Positions 9,200-59,366 of a stretch of DNA of 64,000 bases are shown piece by piece (positions within the stretch are counted from its first letter, which is position 1; each line of letters begins with the position of its first letter). Position numbers and translations under genes: made by a program. Below the pieces are notes generated by a model that saw nothing but the letters and a program-made list of their open reading frames with translations, was not told the origin of the DNA and made no database searches. This DNA is from Beroe forskalii (taxonomy: Eukaryota > Ctenophora > Nuda > Beroida > Beroidae): NCBI GenBank assembly GCA_011033025.1, contig WFMF01000187.1:186001-250000 (forward strand), in the 5' to 3' direction.

Positions 9200-10291
9200 A
9201 TGAGGAGACAGGCCACCAATCTGGCGAAAGAGTTGGTCCTCACGAGCGCTGCCATCATCTTCTCTTACGGGGTCCTGTCATTCTTCAACTTAACTTCAAA
9301 TTCCCATATTGATACCATGTTCGAATCATATGAGAGTCAGTTCACTATGAGTGATCGGAAACAGATAGTGATCCTAATGGCTGGCACCAGAACTGCTTCC
9401 ACCTTCCTGGGTCAGCTATTCAACCAGAACCCTAACTTCCTTTACATCCACGAGCCATTTCAAGCCAGGCATCTCCTCGAACTCCGGGAATACGGGCTCA
9501 TCTCGGAGGCTGACGAGCGGTCGACGCTGGACGAGCTGCAGATGTTCTGGCTGCAGCAAGTGCTGGACCGGTGCGACACAGGGGACTTGGTGCTGGAGCC
9601 CGAGCAGGAGCTCTATGGAGAATGTGGTACTTCAGCTGAGAATCTGATGAGGTTCAGCACGCCCGAGTGTCAGCTGAACTTCACCGAGACCGCTCGCTCA
9701 GAACTGTGTGTTCTGAGGAGCACTGTCGTCATGAAGATTAACCGGCTACTGCAGCTGGACTGGCTGAGTGACATTCAGGACGCAATCCAGGGCGTGGATT
9801 TCAAGATAATCCACCTGCTGAGAGATCCACGGGATGTCATAAAGTCACGCTTCAAGTTCAGGCACTACTACTACAAGGACCGCTTCCCCGTCACCCACGA
9901 GATGAACATGAACAACAAGGTGGGTCTGGCAGCAGAGGAGTGGTGTCTCAGAGAACTGGATAACATTGTCTACGCAGAGAGGGATCCCCCAGCCTGGCTT
10001 GCTGGAAACTACCTGCTGATACGATTCGAAGAGTTAGTCGAGGATCCTCTGGCGATTGCTGAGGAGTTGTACGAGTTTATCGGTACTGATGTGCCGGCTT
10101 CAGTGCGGGAGTGGATATCGGAGGAAGGTGGCAAAGTACTGGATATCCACGCAGACTCTATCGAATTCCCTGACTCCAAGTGGAACTCCACGTATAACGA
10201 GAGGGTGGAGGAAGAGTGCAAACCGCTCATCATCAAGATGGGGCTCCCCTTCCAGGAGCTGAATATCACGTACTCGGAGAGCTACTACTGA
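9200..10291 (+). CDS. Golgi carbohydrate sulfotransferase (CHST-like), single exon
   Basis: A 363-residue intact protein. Residues about 12-30 form an N-terminal hydrophobic anchor after a short basic tail, the type II topology of Golgi sulfotransferases. Residues 55-75 (IVILMAGTRTASTFLGQLF) fit the 5'-phosphosulfate loop that binds PAPS, with a threonine-rich version of the usual RSGSSF core. Residues 203-217 (IIHLLRDPRDVIKSR) fit the 3'-phosphate-binding motif. YLLIRFEELVEDP (271-283) is the conserved segment that follows in the CHST1-7 family. Potential N-glycosylation sites are at N30, N160, N329 and N355. By family it transfers sulfate from PAPS to a glycan in the Golgi lumen; the glycan acceptor cannot be told. 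The ATG has A at -3. A pyrimidine-rich AG at about 9060 suggests a spliced 5' UTR exon. No intron interrupts the coding frame. Confidence 0.92.
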   Translation: MRRQATNLAKELVLTSAAIIFSYGVLSFFNLTSNSHIDTMFESYESQFTMSDRKQIVILMAGTRTASTFLGQLFNQNPNFLYIHEPFQARHLLELREYGLISEADERSTLDELQMFWLQQVLDRCDTGDLVLEPEQELYGECGTSAENLMRFSTPECQLNFTETARSELCVLRSTVVMKINRLLQLDWLSDIQDAIQGVDFKIIHLLRDPRDVIKSRFKFRHYYYKDRFPVTHEMNMNNKVGLAAEEWCLRELDNIVYAERDPPAWLAGNYLLIRFEELVEDPLAIAEELYEFIGTDVPASVREWISEEGGKVLDIHADSIEFPDSKWNSTYNERVEEECKPLIIKMGLPFQELNITYSESYY

Positions 10292-15132: not shown

Positions 15133-17049
15133 GTAAGACTTTACAGGTCTACCATTAAAAAAAGATATGTAGGCAGCGTGATTCAAAGCACCCGCTAAAT
15201 CGGGTCTCATTTCTCCGATCTTATTCATAATGCTATAAGTCTACTGCTAAAAGATAGGCTGGCATTTAAAAGTTTAAATTGGGGACAAAGTGGTAAGCAA
15301 GAACCAAAAATAATTCTATGTGGTATTTTGTCATGACCATGTATATGGAGGGTTATCTTGCATGCCATGGTTATGTTGTTACATGGACAATGGGTCAAGA
15401 TTTTTCTTGCTGACATCATGTGGCAAGTTCTGAACTTCTGATTTCAAGTTGGATAAATGAAACCATATGAAATAAAATGCCTTATCATATTTACATAGCG
15501 TAGAAAGCTAGAATATTATTATTTATTCGATATATATGTTTGTTATAACTTTATAAACCCTGTTTTTAAGTTTTTAAGTTTTTTCTGCTGAAGCTACGGT
15601 TATAATTACCACAGAATTATCCAGGTTAATATGTTGAAAGCAACTCTCAAACGCAGCAAAAAATCAAAATATTCAAGTTTCGTTTATCGGAAAATATTAT
15701 CAGCAACTACAGCTTCGTACGTGTCCGGTAATCGAGCATTGGACGTAAACTGGATAGCAGATTAAACTGTCTCAAAGAATTACTGTAATTGGAACTAGGC
15801 GATATCTTTACCGCTAAAATTAAAACATGATAGCAATTTTAATTTGCTTCACTTGTAAATATTGGTAGTTGCTGAGAACGCTGTATGAAACGGAGCGCGT
15901 CAAAAACTAAAATTATAACCTTTTTTCATTATGTGTTGACAGAACTTTAACTATGCAGTCAAAGCTTCGAGATAATATTATCGGCTTTCAATAGCTTCAG
16001 TAGCTTTGCAAGCTCTAATATGAAAAACTACCTTTAGAGTTCTGTCAAAGTCGAAAATTCCATTTTTGACAATAAAACCAGTATTCATCAGAATAAGCTC
16101 GCTAAAAACTTAAAAAGCTTTGTATGACCTACCATGTCGTCTCAGGTATTGGTAGAACCCTTTCAAATCTAATGAGGTCTTAAATTTAACTCTTTCATCG
16201 CGAGACATTATTGAGTATTCAAGGTACAAAGATTACTGGGTGTCTCGTGTACTGTCTAATGGAAACGTCTGCTTTCAAGTTTTGAGAGGAGATATCAAAA
16301 TATGAAATGGAATTTCAAATTATTAACAGCTTCGTTAATGAGCATCGATAATGAGCAGCATCAATTCTGAAGTTGAACCGAGTGCGCAAAAATATCGGAG
16401 AAACCCGTTTATGATCTCACTTTTGTTTTCAAGATGATGAATATTCCTATTTCTACCGGCAAAAATAGATTTCCTAAATCAAAGAATTTAATCTATTAGC
16501 CTGGAAGGTTTTAAAAAAGCATAAACCTAAGCTTAAACACTGATAATTTTAATGAAAATCACAAAATTGATCAATAAACGACACGAATCAAGAATTTGTG
16601 ACGAAAATCAAGCCGCTCATTAATCATGAAGGCATAAAATGACTGAAATCACTGTAGCTTATCTCAAAGCAAACACATTTAATGAACTCTTTACTAATTT
16701 ACCATTAATTAAGGCCATATATAATTGATAAAGGCCATTGTACGTAAGCGTTATGCAATGATGATTTGATATTGAGTTAGAATCAGGGGCCCAGTTCCCG
16801 GCCAAATTATTCACATTAATTGATTGATTAAGCTATTTGGATTGTTCGGTACTTTATCGCTATACCGCTTCAAAGACTAATGAAATAATAAGAGCTAAGT
16901 TACTCGATCATGGACTTTCGACCTATTATAAGAGAAAAAATGAAACCATCTGTGCAAAAATTATTTACAAAGGTTTTATTGTTGGAATGTGTTCTAATGG
17001 GTCCCTTGAAGGTCTCCAAAGAGTGTTAAGGTGCTACCTTGAAGGGAAA

Positions 17050-17735
17050 AGTCAGGAGGGCCACGCCCTTTTTCGACCGTGGGAAATTATGAGAGAAAAA
17101 TGAAAATTCAGTTTTAATATGATATATGGCATGTGGGTACCTAAACCTATGTTTTTGGGACGTGGAATCGATTCCAAACACTTTCAAAGTCATCTATCTT
17201 CCTTGACCCAAAACCGGCCACGCCCATTTTGCACCAAGACATTTTGAGGTCCAAAAGCTATTTTCAGATTAATGCGATATATGCCATATAAGTACTCTAA
17301 ACCCATGTTTTTTGGAGTTTTGGGACGAGAAATCGATTCCGCACATTATCAAAGTCGTATCTACCTTCTTTGCCTCAAAACCGGCCACGCCCACTTTTTG
17401 CGTATGGGATTTTTTGACCGCCACTAAGGTATTTTTCAGTGAAGTTCGATGTATGGCATGTAGGTACTCTAAACCCATGTTTTTTGGGACGAGAAATCGA
17501 TTCCACACATTATAAAAGTCTAATCTACCTTCCTTGACTCAAAACCGGCCATGCCCATTTTTGTGCAAGTCAGTTTTGAGGTAGAACAGCTATTTTTCAG
17601 ATTAATGCGATATATGGCATGTAGGTACTCTAAACCCATGTTTTTGGGACGAGAAACTGATTCCGCACATTATCAAAGTCGTGTCGACCTTCCTTGACCC
17701 AATACCAGCCACGCCCACTTTTTGCGCAGATAATC
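17050..17735 (-). repeat. foldback 1, left arm of ~160-bp tandem units
   Basis: The block GGGACGAGAAATCGATTCC recurs with slight changes near 17158, 17324, 17487 and 17645, a spacing of about 160 bases. Each unit also holds GGCATGTAGGTACTCTAAAC and a GCCACGCCCA box (near 17060, 17216, 17389, 17545 and 17707). It is the inverted counterpart of 19290-20480. Confidence 0.85.
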
Positions 17736-19289
17736 CTCTTTTGGATTTGCACTTGCTTTCGCCTAATGTGGTCGCCACCCCTCAGTCGCTTGTGAAGGGT
17801 CTTGCCACGGCATCCAGCACCTACCAAGGTGCACACATACATAATGCATACATGTGGGGATAGACAGGACATGGTGTGCAAGGGTGGAGGTTCTTCTCAG
17901 GGATAAAGCCAAAGGTTGAGCAGTTTGCCTAGGAGTATTGGTTGTGCAGCAGAACCAGTAAACACTGAACCCACCCGAATTTGGCTCTATTGCAAGAAAG
18001 TGATTTTACCAGATAAATGTTTGATCACCTAACGTAAGCAAGCGAAAGTCATGTTTCCTTTCCCAACGACCAAAGTGATAATTCACCCATTTAGGTATGT
18101 ACTCTAAATCAGGATAAATTGTAGAGATACATCCAATCTCTACCATCTTACCATGGAAAGATTTCCAAGCCATAACAGGATCACTGTGATATCTTGATAT
18201 GGATGGTAATTAGATTTATTACATGTGGGGTACCAGAAAAGACCAATTGTGAGGAACTCTTCTCAGCTGACCAGGCTTCTGGCTGCTATCACCCAATTAA
18301 TTTCAGAAATTCTACTACAACAGGAATTTTGCCAATGAAGCATTGAAAGTGATATTTCGCCGAGAAAATAGGGTTCCAGAGGTCGCTTGGTAATGGCTTC
18401 GTGATAGTGGGACACTCGGACACAACAAACCTGCTCCGGGTTAAAGAGATGGGCACGGCTGAAATGATAAGCAGGACAAGAGAGAAAACCCGCTGTGCTC
18501 AGGTTAACAGAATGGCCGAGCAGAAAACAAGAGGTTAGGTTTTAAGGTTGGGCATGTCGTGAAGAATGGGGATAAAGTTGGATGCCTACAGGGATAGCTG
18601 ACAAGGAAGTATTCAGACAAATACACTGCCATAGAAATCTTGAAGGGCAGCTGGGCATTGAATTGATATTAACATATGTGGATGTCCATATTTTATCCTT
18701 TCTATCCAGGATGGAAAGGAGGAGTGAATGTCTGACATTTTAATGAATTTATCGACCCCACGGGGAGAAAAATTCAAAGCCAGTGAGTGAGGATTGATAA
18801 ACACTTCACCTCAATAACAGCAGAGCCTCGATCTAGCAGAGCACACAACAAACAGAGAAGAGGAGAGAGTTATGAAGTTATGACAGTAGCAGTCGGAAAG
18901 GAACTGGTCGGGTAGGAGCAGAAAAGCACCTCAATAAATTTCATTCCTTGTAGTGTGCTGGGAGGAATAGGGACACATCACTCGTTTTCATAGGTTAGAC
19001 ATTAGTTGACTGCCGCGCCTCCTTGATTTCGGGCTGGTTTTTGTTTCCAGAATTTTGTCTATCACCAGTAGAGGACGACCATAGCAGACCAATGTACTTT
19101 TATGTGGGAAGAACATCAACAAGTGTTATACCTCGAATGACTAACCTAAACTACTGCAGCTAGTTTGACCAGATACTCAGAAAATCAATAATCAATTGTG
19201 ATAATAACATGTTTAGAGTGCCAACATGCCTTATATCTTATGTGACTGAGCAATATATTTTAGACTGGTCAAAAATACTCTGCACAAAA
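17736..19289. other. loop of foldback 1
   Basis: Unique sequence between the arms. A plus-strand frame from about 18355 to 18539 stays open for about 58 codons and includes NGFVIVGHSDTTNLLRVKEM; another at 17735-17863 includes LLDLHLLSPNVVATPQSL. Neither matches a family I recognise. They could be captured or decayed coding pieces, or chance. Confidence 0.3.
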
Positions 19290-20480
19290 AAAGTAGCCGT
19301 GGCCACAAACGGATCAAGGAAGTTCAGTACGACTTTGATAATGTGTGGAATCGATTCTATTTCTTTGTTCAAACACATGGGTTAGGGTACCTACATCCTA
19401 ACTATCGTATTTAACTGAAAAATAACTTTATGGTGCAGGTGGGCAAAAATCCCATACGCAAAAAGTGGGCGTGGCTGATATTGGGTAAAGGAAGGTCGAG
19501 ACGACTTTTATAATGTGTGGAATCGATTTCTCGTCCCAAAAAACATGGGTTTAGAGTACCTACATGCCATACATCGCATTAATCTGAAAAATAGCTTTTC
19601 TACCTCAAAATGTCATGCGCAAAAATGGGCGTGGCCGATTTTGGAGTCAAGGAAGGTAGATACGACTTTTTATAATGCGTGGAATCGATTTCTCGTCCCA
19701 AAAACATAGGTTTAGAGTACCTACATGCCATACATCGCACTTCACTGAAAAATACCTTTGTGGCGGTCAAAAAATCCCATACGCAAAAAGTGGGCGTGGC
19801 CGGTTTTGAGGCAAAGAAGGTAGATACGATTTTGATAATGTGCGGAATCGATTTCTCGTCCCAGAAAACATGGGTTTAGAGTACCTACATGCCATACATC
19901 GCATTAATCTGAAAAATAGCTTTTCTACCTCAAAATGTCATGCGCAAAAATGGGCGTGGCCGATTTTGAGTCAAGGAAGGTAGATACGACTTTTATAATG
20001 CGTGGAATCGATTTCTCGTCCCAAAAAACATAGGTTTAGAGTACCTACATGCCATACATCGCACTTCACTGAAAAATACCTTTGTGGCGGTCAAAAAATC
20101 CCATACGCAAAAAGTGGGCGTGGCCGGTTTTGAGGCAAAGAAGGTAGATACGACTTTGATAATGTGCGGAATCGATTTCTCGTCCCAGAAAACATGGGTT
20201 TAGAGTACCTACATGCCATATATCGCATTAATCTGAAAAATAGCTTTTAGGCCTCAAAAATGCCTTGGGCAAAAATGGGTGTGGCCGGTTTTGGGTCAAT
20301 GAAGGTAGATACGACTTTGAAAGTGTTTGGAATCGATTCCCCGTCCCAAAAAACATAGGTTTAGGGTACCCACATGTCATATATCATATTAAAACTGAAT
20401 TTTCATTTTTCCCTCAAAATTTCCCACGGTCGAAAAAGGGCGTGGCCCTCCTGAATTTTCCCTTCAAGGTAGCACCTTAA
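19290..20480 (+). repeat. foldback 1, right arm with two-unit higher-order repeat
   Basis: GGAATCGATTTCTCGTCCC recurs near 19520, 19681, 19843, 20005, 20168 and 20330, spacing about 162 bases. Two unit types alternate: one with GCGGTCAAAAAATCCCATAC and one with CTACCTCAAAATGTCATGCG. The dimer at about 19520-19840 is almost identical to 19841-20165, pointing to recent unequal expansion of this arm. Every unit keeps TGGGCGTGG or a one-base variant. Confidence 0.85.
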
Positions 20481-20708
20481 CACTCTTTGGAGACCTTCAT
20501 GGGACCTATTAGAACACATTCCAACAATAAAACCTTTGTAAATAATTTTTGCACAGATCGTGGCATTTTTTGCCGTTTTTACCTTATAACTATTTTCTAG
20601 AACTTAAATTTAATAGTGCTTTTGTAACATTAGAACAGTGCTGCCTAAAGTGCACAGGATCAAACGTGTCTTAAAGAGTAATGTGATGTAGCGAGTTCTG
20701 TGAACGAC

Positions 20709-26300: not shown

Positions 26301-27850
26301 TTATTAAACTGAATTATGCACCGACCTTACTCGTTAAAATGGGTATATTTTCAAACACAAGGAAATGTTTTAGATTATGATATGAACTTCAAGTTCATAG
26401 TGGCTCCACCGTGTGTAATAAATTATTATGCACTGTTCCTCTGCACCAAAATGAATTATAACCAACTCCAGTGCGTAATTAATCAGGATTTGGCACTGCA
26501 GTGCGTGATAATTTATTACGAAGAGAACACTGGTGCCTAAAGGGATTTTGCAAAAACATGCTTCAAAGGTGCATGATAAGAAATAATGCTTCTAATCAAA
26601 AGTGAAGCCAATTTCTGCATGATTACTGTCAAAACTCTCTTGCCTAAGTCTAAGCCTTAGACGCTTCACCCGTGGACTGTAACGTCTTATTCCATTGAAA
26701 GCTAGCAGTTTCAAAGACCATCTAGAGCGGTATTTGTAGCTTATCGGACGACATTTAGAATATATTCCAACAGAACTGAGATTCCGGATCTCACTTTTTT
26801 TAAATATTGTCGTCGTGTCGTCTGCAAGTGTAATGCCAAGTATTTTCGATCAGGGTTTAGGAATGAGCTGGTAGGGTAGACTCAGCATTGCCGGGTATAT
26901 TCCCAACAGCAATGGATGCTGACGAGCACTATGTTATATACTTGAGACAGCTGGACGGTGATAACCAGCTCCACCACTGAAGATGCCCAGAACGAGACAA
27001 GGTGGTCTATAGCAGTGTGCCGGACAAATGCACAATAGCAGAGAAATTCTGTTGAAATGTTAGGAAATAACTTATCAGCATTGCTGCATTTTATGAACAC
27101 GTTCCACAGCATGATATAATAAATATGTGATTTGAACAACACGTGCGAAAATATATTTACGAAATGTTACGAACCTCGCAGTGCGCGAGTTACAGCCGAT
27201 ATGAGGTGGGTCGTGTCAGGGAAAAGTTTAGGTGTAATGATGGGAGTTTCAAAGTCAGACAACATATCCCGCAATGCATAATATCTTACAAATTCCGTAG
27301 GCATCGAACGTGAACAAACGTAGAAGAAGCAGAGATTCTAGGTAAAAGATTTGAAGAAAATGGCTAAAACGCCTAGTGGTCTGGGAAACCCCGTCGAGCC
27401 TATTGAATGTGAAAAGCTCCCGCCGGTGTGAAAATCCAGGCATTTCAAACGGGTATTCTTTCATGACGGGGTATCCTTTGATGACGGGATATTCCCTATA
27501 GGTGACAATGAAATTTCGCGGACCTGTTCAGTATCAAAGTGAGGCACTGGTAAAAGTACAATAATGCCCTCCGGCAGAGCTTGTACCCAGCAAAACGTGG
27601 AATTGAATACACAATATTACGAAGTAAGAGCAGCTAACTGTTGAAATTCTAAATATAATACCTGTAATCTCATTTTATATACGTTCGTTGACAATGTTCA
27701 CATCAAAACGACAATTGTGCCTCCTTGACGGTCAATATATATGTACGTGCCTCTTCTCGGGCTTCAGACGGATGCGTTATTGCGACATCTTCTGCGACAA
27801 TCGGAATGTAAAGTGGACGAGACTTCTCTAGAACGCCGCTATGGTTTGTT
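26301..27850. other. no gene recognised
   Basis: Small frames at 26316-26540 (+), 26882-27142 (-) and 27255-27464 (-) show no domain and no good splice context. I see nothing else. Confidence 0.4.
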
Positions 27851-28440
27851 CATGACACTTGGTTGCGTAGTTATGACACTAGGTAGTTTGATTATGACAT
27901 TAGGTTGTGTTGTTGAGACCAAGGCAGTGTGGTTATGTGGGTATAATTATAACACTACTTAGGTCGTGTTATTATGACACTAGGTTGTGCAGATTTATTT
28001 CTAAGTTGTGTGGTTATATGTCACAAGGTTGTGTGGTTATGACACTAGGTTGTGTTGTTATGACACTAGGTTGTGTGGTTATGACACTAGGTTGTGTTGT
28101 TATGATACTAGGTGGTGTGGTTATGACACTAGGTTGTGTGGTTATGACACTAGGTTGTGTTGTTATGACACTAGGTGGTGTTGTTATGACACTAGGTTGT
28201 GTGGTTATGACACTAGGTTGTGTGGTTATGACACTAGGTTGTGTGGTTATGACACTAGGTTGTGTTGTTATGACACTAGGTGGTGTTGTTATGACACTAG
28301 GTTGTGTTGATATGGCACTCAGTAGTGTTGCTATGACACTAGGTAGTGTCATATATGACACTAGGTTGTGTTGAAATGACACTAGGTTGTGTTGTTATGA
28401 CACTAGGTTGCGCGGTTAAAGCATAAGTTTGTCCGGCTAT
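27851..28440 (+). repeat. 21-bp minisatellite
   Basis: About 28 head-to-tail copies of a 21-bp unit (GGTTATGACACTAGGTTGTGT), with the third position of TGG/TGT units varying. Because 21 is a multiple of three, all frames stay open and give artefactual repeat proteins on both strands (VVMTLGC on plus). It degenerates at both edges. Confidence 0.92.
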
Positions 28441-46563: not shown

Positions 46564-49500
46564 ATGAAGTTCAGTAAGATTGGTGTGTTGTTGCTGGTAG
46601 CCCTGTTCATGGGAGGAACTGGTTTCCAGCTGAACATCTACCACACCAACGACATACACTCTCGGTACAATGAACGGGGGCACCGGGAAGGGGGTGCCTG
46701 TAAGGACGGTGAGCATTTCATTGATTCATTGATTAATTGAATGATAACTCACAATATTGCCATCATTTGGAACGTAGTACACATTTAGTAACAAATTTGC
46801 AATTCATCTATTACTAACGATGCATCATGAAGAAAAAGCAATAGATTTTCAGTTCATCTCAACCACTATCTTCCCAGCGGCTGGCTCCTGTTACGGAGGA
46901 ATGGCCCGACACTCCACCTTCTTCAAGAAAGTCAGAGAACAGAAAGAAGCTGATGATGCTGCTGGTATTGAGAACAACTACTTGATTCTTAGTGGTGGAG
47001 ACTGGTTTTCAGGTAAGGAGTCCTCTCGCGAAATTTATTGGCTATTACGACTTCTCGATGTTAGAACCAGCATTGCTTAAATTGAACTTCAGGCGATCAC
47101 CAAATATCTAAAACTTTTAAATCTTAATAATAGTTCATCGCACTTTTGTACTTCCATATTTTCATAGTCTGTAGATTTCATACATGAAATAATGACAACC
47201 AACTAAGCAAATAGTCAGGGATGAAATGGAATCCCGTGCTTTTGGAATGTTAATAAAGAGTTAGGACCGGTTTCCGGTATTTTAGACTATGCTGAATCGA
47301 TTTAGCTATGCCGGCAATTTTTATTTCGATGCCGTCACCCTTTTTTGGCCACGCCCATTTTTGGCCTGTCGGAAGCCAAAATTGGCAACTCGAAAATTAT
47401 TTTTGCCATTACATGGCAAGTAGGGTATCAAAATAGGGGTTTTCTAGGGTGGGAAAAACGATGCAATGATTATTTTTACTCAAAAAAGTTCATATGCAGA
47501 GTTACAGTGACCACGCCCTTTTTTGGCCTTGCGTGATGGCTAAAATTTAGAACCCATCGATTTCATACTAAGAGCCTCATGTGGGGTATCGAAATAGGGG
47601 TTTTCTGGGGCGAGAAAAACGATGCAATGATTATTTTAACTCAAAAATGTTCATATGCGGAGTTACGGAAGACCACGCCCATTTTTTGCCATGCGTGATG
47701 GCTAAAATTTGGAACTCATCGATTCCATAATAAGGGCCTCATGTGGGGTATCGAAATAGGGGTTTTCTGGGGCGAGAAAAACGATGCAATGATTATTTTA
47801 ACTCAAAAATGTTCATATGCGGAGTGACGGCAGACCACACCCATTTTTGGCCTTGCGCGATGGCTGAAAATTGGATCACATCAATTCCATACTAAGGGCA
47901 TCATGTGGAGCATCTAAAACTAAAAGGGGTTTCCTGGGCCGAGAAACATGATAGAACCATTAGTTTAATCCGAAAATGTTCCCGGGATTGCTGCGGGAGT
48001 ACCTACCCCGGGGATACCACGAAAAGTCCTGCAAGAGCGCTATGTGACTGCTATTGTCCAGTGTCCGAGTAGATACTCCCGAATTACTCCCATAGGACTA
48101 CCAACAGGAGCTCGACTCATCACCATGCACGCCAAACGACCTCACGACCGTATCTCTTAAGTCTATCCTGACCCTAACATACGTGCTCTCTGAGGTTTCT
48201 GGCAGACTAGAGAAATAGAGAGAATTTACTATTTCCATTTACAACTTTAGAACGATATCTATTCTCTTCTGATCCCCTCACACTTGAATGTTATTTTAGA
48301 TCCACTTTGAAGCTTTTAGTAGGTTGAAGCTTCTAGTTAACCATAGGATCATAGGTAAGGGGTATTGCCTGTAAAAAAGCTCCTTAAAGGACGAGTAAAG
48401 CGAAGAAATTTTGTTCAAATATCGTTCTGAGACGTTGTACACAGAATCTAGGGCAATTTTCTAACCTAATCGTTAAAAAACGAAGATTCTACCACACCTA
48501 CAAGACGAGATATTCCTTTCCATATATTTATCATACATAACATGCAGTTGATGTCGGAATTTGGTCCCCTTCCTATCCAGGCGACCTTGCATGTTATGTA
48601 ATTTGCATGTTATTTATCTTGCGTTTTGGTATAATTATCCATCCCATATGAGTGGTTAAACACTGTTTTGCTTCGTCTAGTGGAATTCTCAATTCTATGA
48701 GTCAATAATAAAAACCAACAAATCCATCTAATTAGTAATCGAGGCGTGAAAAAATCAATCAAAACCGTCAAAAACAGTGGAATATATACTGTGTTTACAT
48801 AGTGAACTCAGGGTGTAATTTGATACTGGGGACCATAATGCATCATATTTTGCGCCTAGAATTGCTCTTTGATTTAGCTATAGCGTGCGGTAGGAAGTGA
48901 ATAGAAACATCGGACTTTGACTAAAGTGCTTTTAATTATGATACCCATCATAATATGAAATATTTTGTATACCTTAAATTTCGCTTTACTCGTCCTTATG
49001 CTTTAATGAATAGGATGGGTACAAACTGGGTCCTACCTTGAATTTTATCTCTTGTACTTCTGTTGATAAGGTGTAATTAATGCAAGTAAGTAAGACAGGG
49101 CAATAGTTGCTCGCTCCAATTTTGCACTTCATTACAGTAATGCATTGCTGGCGGTTTCGTTGTTTTATTAAAGTATCTTTCACTTTAAAAAATCGTGACC
49201 ATTTCTCCTACTTGCTCAAGCCATGCATAAAAAGCTTGATATCTGAAATTTAGATGAAATATAGCTATAGGAAACAAAGCATCCATGTATCCTATTTTCA
49301 CTCTTCTAAAAGTTCATTGCCCACGAGTAAAACTCACGGCCTTAATATAACTCACACAGGCATATCCATGAGCACCCATTGCATTCCAATGAAAAATCAA
49401 AATTTTTATACTCCACATGCTGCCCAAAGTATGAAGTATGAATTATGTTAACGTCTTTCTTACTCTGCCTTTTGAACTCCAAAAGGGTATACGCTAACAG

Positions 49501-52500
49501 TTATACGAATAGAGATTTGGAGACAATGAAAACGCCTGTAAAATCAATAGCATTATGAAGTAGTTAAAGGTAGTTACAATAATAACTGTTTTAGATCATA
49601 TCATGTTTATCACGATATCAGGATCGTATGCTAAACTCGTTCTCAAGGTCTTTAGATCTCTGACATAGATTCATGTTGACTCTGTTCTTCAAATGGTTGC
49701 TCCTTAGTTCCGGGGTAGGAGTTGAAGGTACGTTGGACTTCAGGATAGCCTTCTGGATATAATCTGTATTGCCCCGACGATCGTCAGCACAACCATTTGG
49801 AAATCTCCTCAAGTCAAAATCTCGCTCCCTTATATACTATTCGGATCCCGTATCCTGGATCCCGGATCGGGATCCTCATTTCATACATTACTATCGGATC
49901 CCGGATCCTGTATCCCGGATCCAAGATCTCATATTCCGGATCCTGGATCCTAATTTCATATATTACTATCGGATCCCGGATCCTGTATCCCGGATCCCAG
50001 ATCCTGTATCCCTTGTCATAGTTAAATAATAACTTTGAGCCTTCGTGTAAGAGATGGTCTCTGTAAATCCATATTTATAATCTAATCTTGAAAGAATTAG
50101 TGAAAACAGAAGTTGCTTTGAGTCTCCTGAAAAGAATCAGGAGCAAGGTATTATACTTTTCAGCATTTTATGGGTCATGGGTGAGCCTATCGTCAATAAG
50201 CTGGTAAGTAACGAAAATGTTTGAAACATATGATTTATGCAAAATGACGAAATATGGGGCTGATTGCCATTATAACACCCCTAGGAACCTCTTCTGATCA
50301 AGACTTATGGCTGCGTCGTGCTTTAACAATGTAAACTCGTATTTTGATAAACTAGTATTTTTGGGATGGGATCGCTATGTAACACGTTCAAAATCTCAAC
50401 CATTGCACACTGCACAGGGCCATAACTGGACACGGGTACTGGTCGCTATAACTCTGCACATGATTTTGTCGAACAATAATGATGAACTTCCATATTGCAC
50501 ACTGTGGTGAAAAATGGTTATGGCCGCGTTCTTCGAGCCAAGAAACTGCTATAATGAAAGCCCATAATATGCTGTTCAAAGTGGAAAAGTATGGGATCCA
50601 TGCGCCAAGTTTGGAATTCATGCGCCAAAAATGGGCATGGCCTGGTCACTATAACTCCACAGATGAACATTTTCAATTTAAACTAATGGTTCTATCATGT
50701 TTCTCGGCCCAGGAAACCCCTTTTAGTTTTAGATGCTCCACATGATGCCCTTAGTATGGAATTGATGTGATCCAATTTTCAGCCATCGCGCAAGGCCAAA
50801 AATGGGTGTGGTCTGCCGTCACTCCGCATATGAACATTTTTGAGTTAAAATAATCATTGCATCGTTTTTCTCGCCCCAGAAAACCCCTATTTCGATACCC
50901 CACATAAGGCCCTTATTATGGAATCGATGAGTTCCAAATTTTAGCCATCGTGCAAGGCCAAAAATGGGTGTGGTCTGCCGTAACTCCGCATATGAACATT
51001 TTTGAGTTAAAATAATCATTGCATCGTTTTTCTCGCCCCAGAAAACCCCTATTTCGATACCCCACATGAGGCTCTTAGTATGAAATCGATGGGTTCCAAA
51101 TTTCAGCCATCGCGCAAGGCCAAAAATGGGCGTGGTCACCGTAACTCTGCATATGAACTTTTTTGAGTAAAAATAATCATTGCATCGTTTTTCCCGCCCT
51201 AGAAAACCCCTATTTTGATACCCTACTTGCCATGTAATGGCAAAAATAATTTTCGAGTTGCCCCATCCTGGCTTCCGACAGGCCAAAAATGGGTGTGGCC
51301 AAAAAAGGGTGACGGCATCGAAATAAAAATTGCCGGCATAGCTAGATCGATTCAGCATAGTCTAAAATACCGGAAACCGGTCCTAACTCCTTATTAACAT
51401 TCCAAAAGCACGGGATTTATATATCGACCATTTAATCCCTGACTAAAAGGAAAATCTTCAGGCACAGTTTACTACAGTATAAACCGCGGCAATCTCACGG
51501 CACATTTCCTCTCCTCGCTTGGCTACGATGCAATGGCCTATGGCAACCACGAGTTTGACAATGGCCCAGACGTTTTGGCGGCGGCAATGTCTCAGATACC
51601 CCAAGATTCAGATGTTGCACTTCTTTCAGCAAATATGGACGTCGGATCTAGTGGAGTAGCAAAAGAAAACTACGTGATAAAGGAGTTTGTTTTCCAGGGG
51701 AAAACAACGAAAGTAGGTGTAATTGGTCACACTACTCCTGACACCAGTGTCATCAGCTCCCCTGGACCTGATATCTCGTTTAGTGATGTCGTCCCAGCTA
51801 TAAGGGAGCAGGTGGAAAAACTAAAGGAGCAAGGAGTGAATGTCATTGTGGCACTTGGTCATTCTGGTATTGAAACTGACAAAGCAATCTGCGATCAAGT
51901 AGATGGGGTAGACATAGTGGTTGGGGGACATACTAACAGCTTCCTAGCAAACGCAGGAAGTAAAGTTACCTTCCCAGATGGGGCGAGGGTGGAAGAAACA
52001 ATAGAGGGACCCTACCCAATGGTGCGAAACAACGGCAAATGTGTTGTGGTTCAGGCTTATGCATACGGAAAGTTTATAGGGGAACTCAAAACCGAGTTCA
52101 ATGATGCAGGCGAACTGACAGCTTCCTCTGGAGATCCCATCCTGATGTGGGGTGATGCTTGGCCTCAAGACCCTGAAACTTTAACCTTTCTGGAGCCCTT
52201 CACAGCCCAAGTTGAGCAATACGGCAGCCATGTGTTGGGTGTTACCAGTAAAGATGTGGACGGGACCCGCATTATCTGTAGGTTCAGGGAGTGTGGCATG
52301 GGCAACTTGATCACGGATGCCAACGTGCAGAGCTTCAGGAAGAACGACCCCAGTGTGGTCTGTGGAATAATGAACTCGGGTGGAATTCGAGCAGCTATCG
52401 AAGCTGGTGATATCACATACCAGGATGTACTGACAGTACTGCCATTTGGGAATACCATTGATAAGGCAACTGTAACCGGTGCTGTCCTGAAGGAAGCTTT

Positions 52501-58831: not shown

Positions 58832-59366
58832 TGGTTTGCCAGGGGGCCATGGGGTGTCAGGGACTAGGGAGCCACGGGTTGCCACTTGCTAGGGGGCCAT
58901 AGGGTGCCAGGGAGCCATAAGTCGCCAGGGGGCCATATGATGCCATGTAAGCCATAGCTTGCCAGGGAGCCATAGGTTGCCAGGGGGCCATGGGATGCCA
59001 GGGAGACATAAGTGGCCAGGGGCCATAAGTCGGCAGGGGGCCATGGGATGCCATGTGAGCCATAGGTTGCCAGGGAGCCATAGGTTGCCAGGGGGCCATG
59101 GGGTGCCAGGGGGCCATGGGTTGCCATGGGGCCATGGGGTGCCAGGGAGACAGGTTGCCAGGGGGCCATGGGTTGCCAGGGGGCCATGGGTTGCCAGGGG
59201 CCATGGGGTGCCAGGGGCCATGAGTTGCCAGGGGGCCATGGGGTGCCAGGGAGACATAGGTCACCAGGGGCCATGGGGTGCCAGGGAGCCATAAGTTGCC
59301 AGGGGCCATGGGGTGCCAGGGGAGCCATAGGTTGCCAGGGGGCATGGGGTGCCATGGCCCCCTGGC
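58832..59366 (-). repeat. 18-bp minisatellite next to a RhoGEF splice acceptor
   Basis: About 29 copies of GCCAGGGGGCCATGGGTT and variants (GGGAGCCATAGG). Since 18 is a multiple of three, every frame stays open and six-frame translation shows false proteins (WQPMAP repeats). The array ends about 13 bases upstream of the acceptor of RhoGEF exon a (58820-58819, minus strand), so it occupies the end of that intron, C-rich on the sense strand. Confidence 0.92.

Follow-up and report, generated by a model that had tools for sequence, protein, structure and literature searches.

Foldback elements in the window

The window analysed here is a 64,000-nucleotide (nt) stretch of the Beroe forskalii genome (assembly GCA_011033025.1, contig WFMF01000187.1, positions 186,001 to 250,000), and coordinates refer to positions within it. 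A plus-strand intron of a 5'-nucleotidase gene (47013-51461) contains a complete foldback element, element 2 (47212-51445; 4,234 base pairs (bp); ends TAGTCAGGG...CCCTGACTA), which belongs to subfamily A of the group of relatives described below and is bordered by a 3-bp flank repeat, AAA, on the left (47209-47211) and right (51446-51448). Self-alignment recovers two arms of ~750 bp, the left at 47212-47981 (plus strand) and the right at 50665-51445 (minus strand), which match each other over 753 nt at 96.9% identity (positions 19-770 of the left arm), confirming the foldback structure inside the nucleotidase intron that the initial annotation had proposed. Each arm begins with an 18-nt tip (left, 47212-47229, plus strand; right, 51428-51445, minus strand), and the two tips agree at 17 of 18 positions. 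At the right end only, the tip is followed by a 10-nt spacer, TCGATATATA in inward reading (51418-51427, minus strand). Further inward lie tandem units, which had been estimated at ~161 bp and are indeed spaced at 162-163 bp: three units of 162 bp in the left arm (47349-47834, plus strand), each started by a CCACGCCC box (47349, 47511 and 47673), and three of 162-163 bp in the right arm (50812-51298, minus strand), after which the fourth interval between boxes is 171 nt. Box-to-box spacing is thus 162, 162 and 162 in the left arm and 163, 162, 162 and 171 in the right arm, where the boxes stand at 147, 310, 472, 634 and 805 from the right end. Between the arms is an interior of ~2.7 kb.

A second element with the same plan, element 1 (16926-20589; 3,664 bp), has different ends, TTATAAG, and is flanked by copies of CTA at 16923-16925 and 20590-20592. 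A lone CCACGCCC box at 9790 (minus strand), outside both elements, is perhaps a remnant.

The right end of element 2 lies 16 nt upstream of the 3' end of the host intron. In the stretch 51439-51461, the A of its terminal CTGAC precedes the 3' splice site by 19 nt, a fair position for a branch point by consensus. The right end of the element may thus stand in for a branch point that the insertion displaced, and this branch-point-like CTGAC might account for the tolerance of the insertion in the nucleotidase intron.

Relatives and target-site duplications

The left arm of element 2 has at least 82 matches in the 216-Mb assembly (40 of 191 candidates scored), and the pattern of its first 18 nt, with up to two mismatches, matches 231 times, against 14 for a reversed control. 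The sample examined consists of 29 complete elements, the two in the window and 27 that were fetched, divided by shared sequence into subfamilies A (nine, including element 2), B (four), C (eight), D (six) and E (one, L037), plus element 1. Loci L009-L027 were gathered by left-arm similarity, not by two end types, and later ones by tip pattern. Outside the 29-element counts stand L028, L039, L040, L042, L046, L049 and L050 (one or no tip in the stretch), the aberrant L051, L052 (interior only) and the short loci L001-L008 and L029-L036.

Direct repeats of 3 bp flank 25 of the 29 complete elements, compared with 29 of 812 flank pairs mismatched between elements, and at lengths from 4 to 8 bp, the longest scored, the flanks match in none of the elements (0/29). 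The initial annotation had suggested a TA duplication; this is refuted, for elements with TAGTC ends span TAG to CTA, placing the TA inside the element and the duplicated 3 bp (AAA for element 2) outside. Sixteen different triplets occur among the 25 duplications, six of which are TTA or TAA. Those without a 3-bp duplication are L014, L015 and L017, whose long-end tips are damaged or odd, and L037. For L021, two related sequences correspond to the empty site with a single CAG, confirming the insertion; the joined flank of L010, compared with L049 as an empty site, was not clean and was rejected. These results show that the elements insert with a 3-bp duplication.

Subfamily E is represented by a head-to-tail dimer (L037, 393-6885) of elements 95% identical to each other and joined at one shared TA, a junction that ordinary insertion with a 3-bp duplication does not account for. 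In subfamily D, L041 and L045 are palindromic over nearly their whole length, and a 21-bp minisatellite, CATAACATACCCCTATCAACT, recurs as a mirror image in the two halves.

A conserved offset between the two ends

Inside the tip, one end is displaced by 9-11 nt relative to the other in all 29 elements (10 nt in 24, 11 nt in three and 9 nt in two); the value of 11 for L014 and L015 hinges on a start set by hand, their long-end tips being damaged. In subfamilies A-E the extra bases of the long end directly follow the 18-nt tip, whereas the 9-nt offset of element 1 lies in different sequence. Inverted pairs of the element-1 family, picked by eye among the matches listed, exhibit a similar pattern: in four of five, the ends match from query positions 46-47 and 56, and in the fifth, C159, from 56 and 58. 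In subfamily D the two ends disagree at two positions of the first 18 nt, and the sequence after the offset is identical at 38-42 of 42 positions. A spacer of ~10 bp is about one helical turn.

The box occupies a similarly constant position. With one mismatch allowed, the first CCACGCCC box of the 22 elements of subfamilies A, B, C and E is found 137-138 from the short end and 144-150 from the long end, and in element 1 these distances are 135 and 144. The exact 15-mer of the box, CCACGCCCAYTTTTG, has 696 matches in the genome (352 + 344), and its reversed control none. The first 100 of the matches listed form 73 clusters, and among the 23 cases of neighbouring clusters less than 10 kb apart, 22 are inverted, one is parallel and none is everted; in this sample, the box marks inverted-repeat elements. 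No cluster holds more than three same-strand boxes, and thus no free satellite array is seen among these 100 matches.

Homology of the arm units

The initial annotation had claimed that the two window elements carry homologous units behind unrelated tips. Plain blastn between elements 1 and 2 gives a best E of 0.006, and tips (TAGTCAGGG against TTATAAG) and flank domains are little alike. With single unit consensuses outside the box, 17 shuffles of 5000 and 9 of 5000 score as highly, and the box register is slightly outscored when the alignment is shifted by 4-9 nt. A profile of subfamily A, B and C units (143 of 146, those shorter than 172 nt, with the box removed) was compared with 10 element-1 units, as the claim itself had invited. 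It scores 21.8, with null means near -2, a null maximum of 16.8 and 0 of 200 reaching the score in each of three block shuffles; the reverse complement scores -2.1. In a harder control, rotations of the element-1 unit average 5.9 with a maximum of 19.5, and 0 of 65 reach the observed score. The element-1 consensus also outscores all 300 other window stretches tried, and the seven units of element 2 alone score 13.0 against a maximum of 10.0 over 200 permutations. These sequence comparisons support homology of the unit types of elements 1 and 2, and the similarity exceeds that of shuffled sequence.

Other elements with ~160-bp units, which the initial annotation had suggested looking for, are found in subfamilies A-C and in L037, whose units of 156-164 bp have blocks recognisably similar by eye. 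The box window is the best conserved part of the A/B/C unit; besides 175 copies of CCACGCCC there are 23 of CCACACCC and five of CCATGCCC. This hints at selection for a KLF-like site (GGGCGTGG, which we take to be of KLF/Sp type), and does no more than hint, since the box copies share ancestry.

Evolution of the arms

For 84 of the 146 A/B/C units the nearest neighbour belongs to another element, for 52 to the partner arm within their own element and for 10 to the same arm; it is never in another subfamily. Grouping of units by arm is therefore rejected. When consensus sequences are compared (positions 35-460), the left-right difference is 0-0.7% in each of subfamilies A-D, in contrast to 16-55% between subfamilies, which suggests that both arms changed together. 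The tip difference persists although the consensus arms are homogenised within subfamilies.

Search for a transposase

Across the 29 elements there are 45 interior frames of at least 100 amino acids, many of them minisatellite translations, as most of the frames beyond the Pfam scan appear to be. An autonomous copy was sought in the longest elements, L013 (6.8 kb) and L018 (7.0 kb), as well as in L028, in L051 and in the interior of the C181 pair, and no transposase was found, no family search having been made of C181. By eye, the C181 interior is retroelement-like. Genome searches gave five matches for PF13358 and 35 for PF13359 (DDE_Tnp_4); all 40 are at least 17.6 kb from each of the 116 tips listed, with 17.7 kb for the closest, and no partner was found among them. 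Searches with PF07592 and PF02992 gave no matches, yet neither did their controls, so these exclude nothing. No transposase having been found, superfamily assignment, and with it the undescribed superfamily suggested by the initial annotation, hinges on one.

Comparison with known elements

In structural class the elements are foldbacks with long tandem-repeat terminal inverted repeats (TIRs), that is, inverted tandem-repeat arms around a variable middle, with the target-site duplication of such elements present at 3 bp. Drosophila FB and sea-urchin TU have long inverted arms as well; FB, TU and Tm1 differ in their longer duplications (8-9 bp) and other unit lengths. Mutator/MULE-type foldbacks (Tetris, Tm1; 8-11 bp duplications) were rejected, with 0/29 elements having duplications of 4 to 8 bp (scored up to 8 bp), as was the P superfamily (Galileo; 7-8 bp), with 0/29 at 7 or 8 bp. 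IS630-Tc1-mariner, and with it the TA reading, was dropped, since the TA is inside the element and the 3-bp direct repeats outside it vary in sequence. Helitrons and Helentrons with tandem repeats have neither duplications nor terminal inverted repeats, both of which are present here.

Foldback elements are mostly placed in Mutator, with exceptions such as Galileo, and are thought to have independent origins (PMC4079207). Tetris of Drosophila virilis is the nearest described element in form: it too is a non-autonomous foldback with no autonomous partner found, and its TIR likewise consists of an outer flanking domain followed by tandem repeats and then a variable non-coding middle, although its duplications are 8-10 bp (3 bp here) and its units ~220 bp (~161 bp here). 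A 10-bp end offset, present here, is not mentioned in the covered parts of that account (PMC4079207). Galileo, a P-superfamily element of Drosophila, shares long TIRs and internal tandem repeats of varying number, but has 7-bp duplications and a known transposase, none having been found here (PMC3573991). The MULE-related foldback Tm1 shares the long inverted arms (PMC3169594). No foldback family with 3-bp duplications was found in the open-licence literature, covered mostly by titles and abstract openings, with Repbase outside this coverage.

Discussion

The elements are probably non-autonomous foldback DNA transposons, forming related families (subfamilies A-E and the element-1 family) that are moved in trans. 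A transposase encoded elsewhere would pair a short-spacer end with a long-spacer end, cut at the tips and insert the element with a 3-bp stagger, by cut-and-paste. The unit arrays could serve as extra binding platforms for the transposase or for a host zinc-finger protein, as accessory sites proposed for Tetris (PMC4079207) and the secondary transposase sites proposed for Galileo (PMC3573991) suggest. Conversion or template switching would keep the long mirror-image arms alike, and selection would maintain the difference between the two ends in their outermost ~28 nt. Several families of this genome retain a common layout although up to half of the arm sequence has diverged between them, which suggests that they share machinery.

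Several observations weigh against this reading. A genome search for the empty site of element 2 matched its own locus only, in two pieces, and in the element-1 family the duplication is readable in one copy. A Pfam scan of 11 of the 45 interior frames, the two longest included, and of one arm frame gave no match. The six subfamily D elements lack boxed ~160-bp units, and their outermost box is usually at 121/131; each of the six has a second box 15-17 nt further inward in one end or both, and in most ends this box is at 135-137/147-148. Within single elements, left and right arms differ by 3.9-4.6%, compared with 3.5-9.9% between elements (three D elements had not been brought into a common orientation for this comparison; for the consensuses they had), and in subfamily B a right arm is more similar to the right arms of other elements than to the left arm of its own. 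Given this weak signal inside single elements, homogenisation is inferred from the consensus sequences only. Finally, L051 has two L-type tips and no 3-bp duplication, contrary to a requirement that the ends differ. Its inverted identity extends beyond the tips for ~34 nt of flank (an exact 9 nt followed, by eye, by a single mismatch in ~34; 42/73 overall), and it could be a snap-back product or another subfamily with longer ends. In L051 (100-5570), an insertion of ~2.26 kb, itself with inverted ends (GCCAAATCGCA), interrupts the left arm.

A serious alternative, which we place a little below an even chance, is that the elements are non-autonomous and related to a described superfamily in which duplications can be 3 bp (Zator, AcademX, Harbinger-like or CACTA), and have gained foldback arms. 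The 35 PF13359 matches in the genome would suit a Harbinger-like source, but none is within 17 kb of the tips listed, and the mixed duplications, with TTA or TAA in 6/25, are unlike the TWA target of PIF/Harbinger, which was rejected. CACTA (En/Spm) was also rejected: its 3-bp duplication fits, but the tips here do not begin with the hallmark CACTA. Compared by duplication length, not tip sequence, Zator (3 bp), AcademX (3-4 bp) and Harbinger-type PHIS elements (0-4 bp) all accommodate the 3 bp seen here (PMC10045372); for Zator, the PF07592 search gave no match, with none in its controls either. Zator is characterised by a Zator/ISAzo13-type transposase, and AcademX by an Academ transposase with a nuclease.

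Instead of conversion between existing arms, new inverted duplications arising repeatedly (snap-back synthesis) might maintain the likeness of the arms. The two like ends of L051, with inverted identity beyond its tips, are what such synthesis would produce, but duplication of a whole end would erase the long-end spacer, which is kept in 29/29 elements, and we consider this route rather unlikely. Still somewhat more doubtful is that the elements constitute a new superfamily, defined by 3-bp duplications and an obligatory end difference of one helical turn, with a logic analogous to the RAG 12/23 rule. The two ends of RAG 12/23 signals and of P elements differ by about one helical turn of spacer; the likeness is one of layout only, their duplication lengths being different. 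That two unrelated transposon families independently acquired one ~160-bp satellite unit, as the initial annotation had also considered, is improbable: the unlike tips and flank domains and the foldback-satellite exchange known from Tetris (PMC4079207) favour it, but it fits worse with the near-equal distance from tip to first box (135-138 and 144-150), the 3-bp duplications and the 9-10 bp offset found in both families, and with the absence of a free array among the 100 matches inspected.

Other repeats in the window include a ~615-bp repeat nested in the interior of element 2 (48383-48997), with inverted ends AAGGACGAGTAAAGCG and 93-99% identity to at least 40 other genome matches listed, and a GGATCC-rich minisatellite in the same interior (49862-50003). 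Long minisatellites of 21 bp and 18/36 bp, at 27846-28410 and 58836-59354, are seemingly unrelated to the foldback elements.

The end difference is conserved across families with otherwise widely diverged tips and arms, and persists although consensus arms are homogenised. Such a one-turn difference between otherwise homogenised ends allows a direct test of whether the pairing of ends follows a rule enforced by a transposase. The group also spreads several hundred copies of one KLF/Sp-like box through the B. forskalii genome, about a nucleosome apart within arms.

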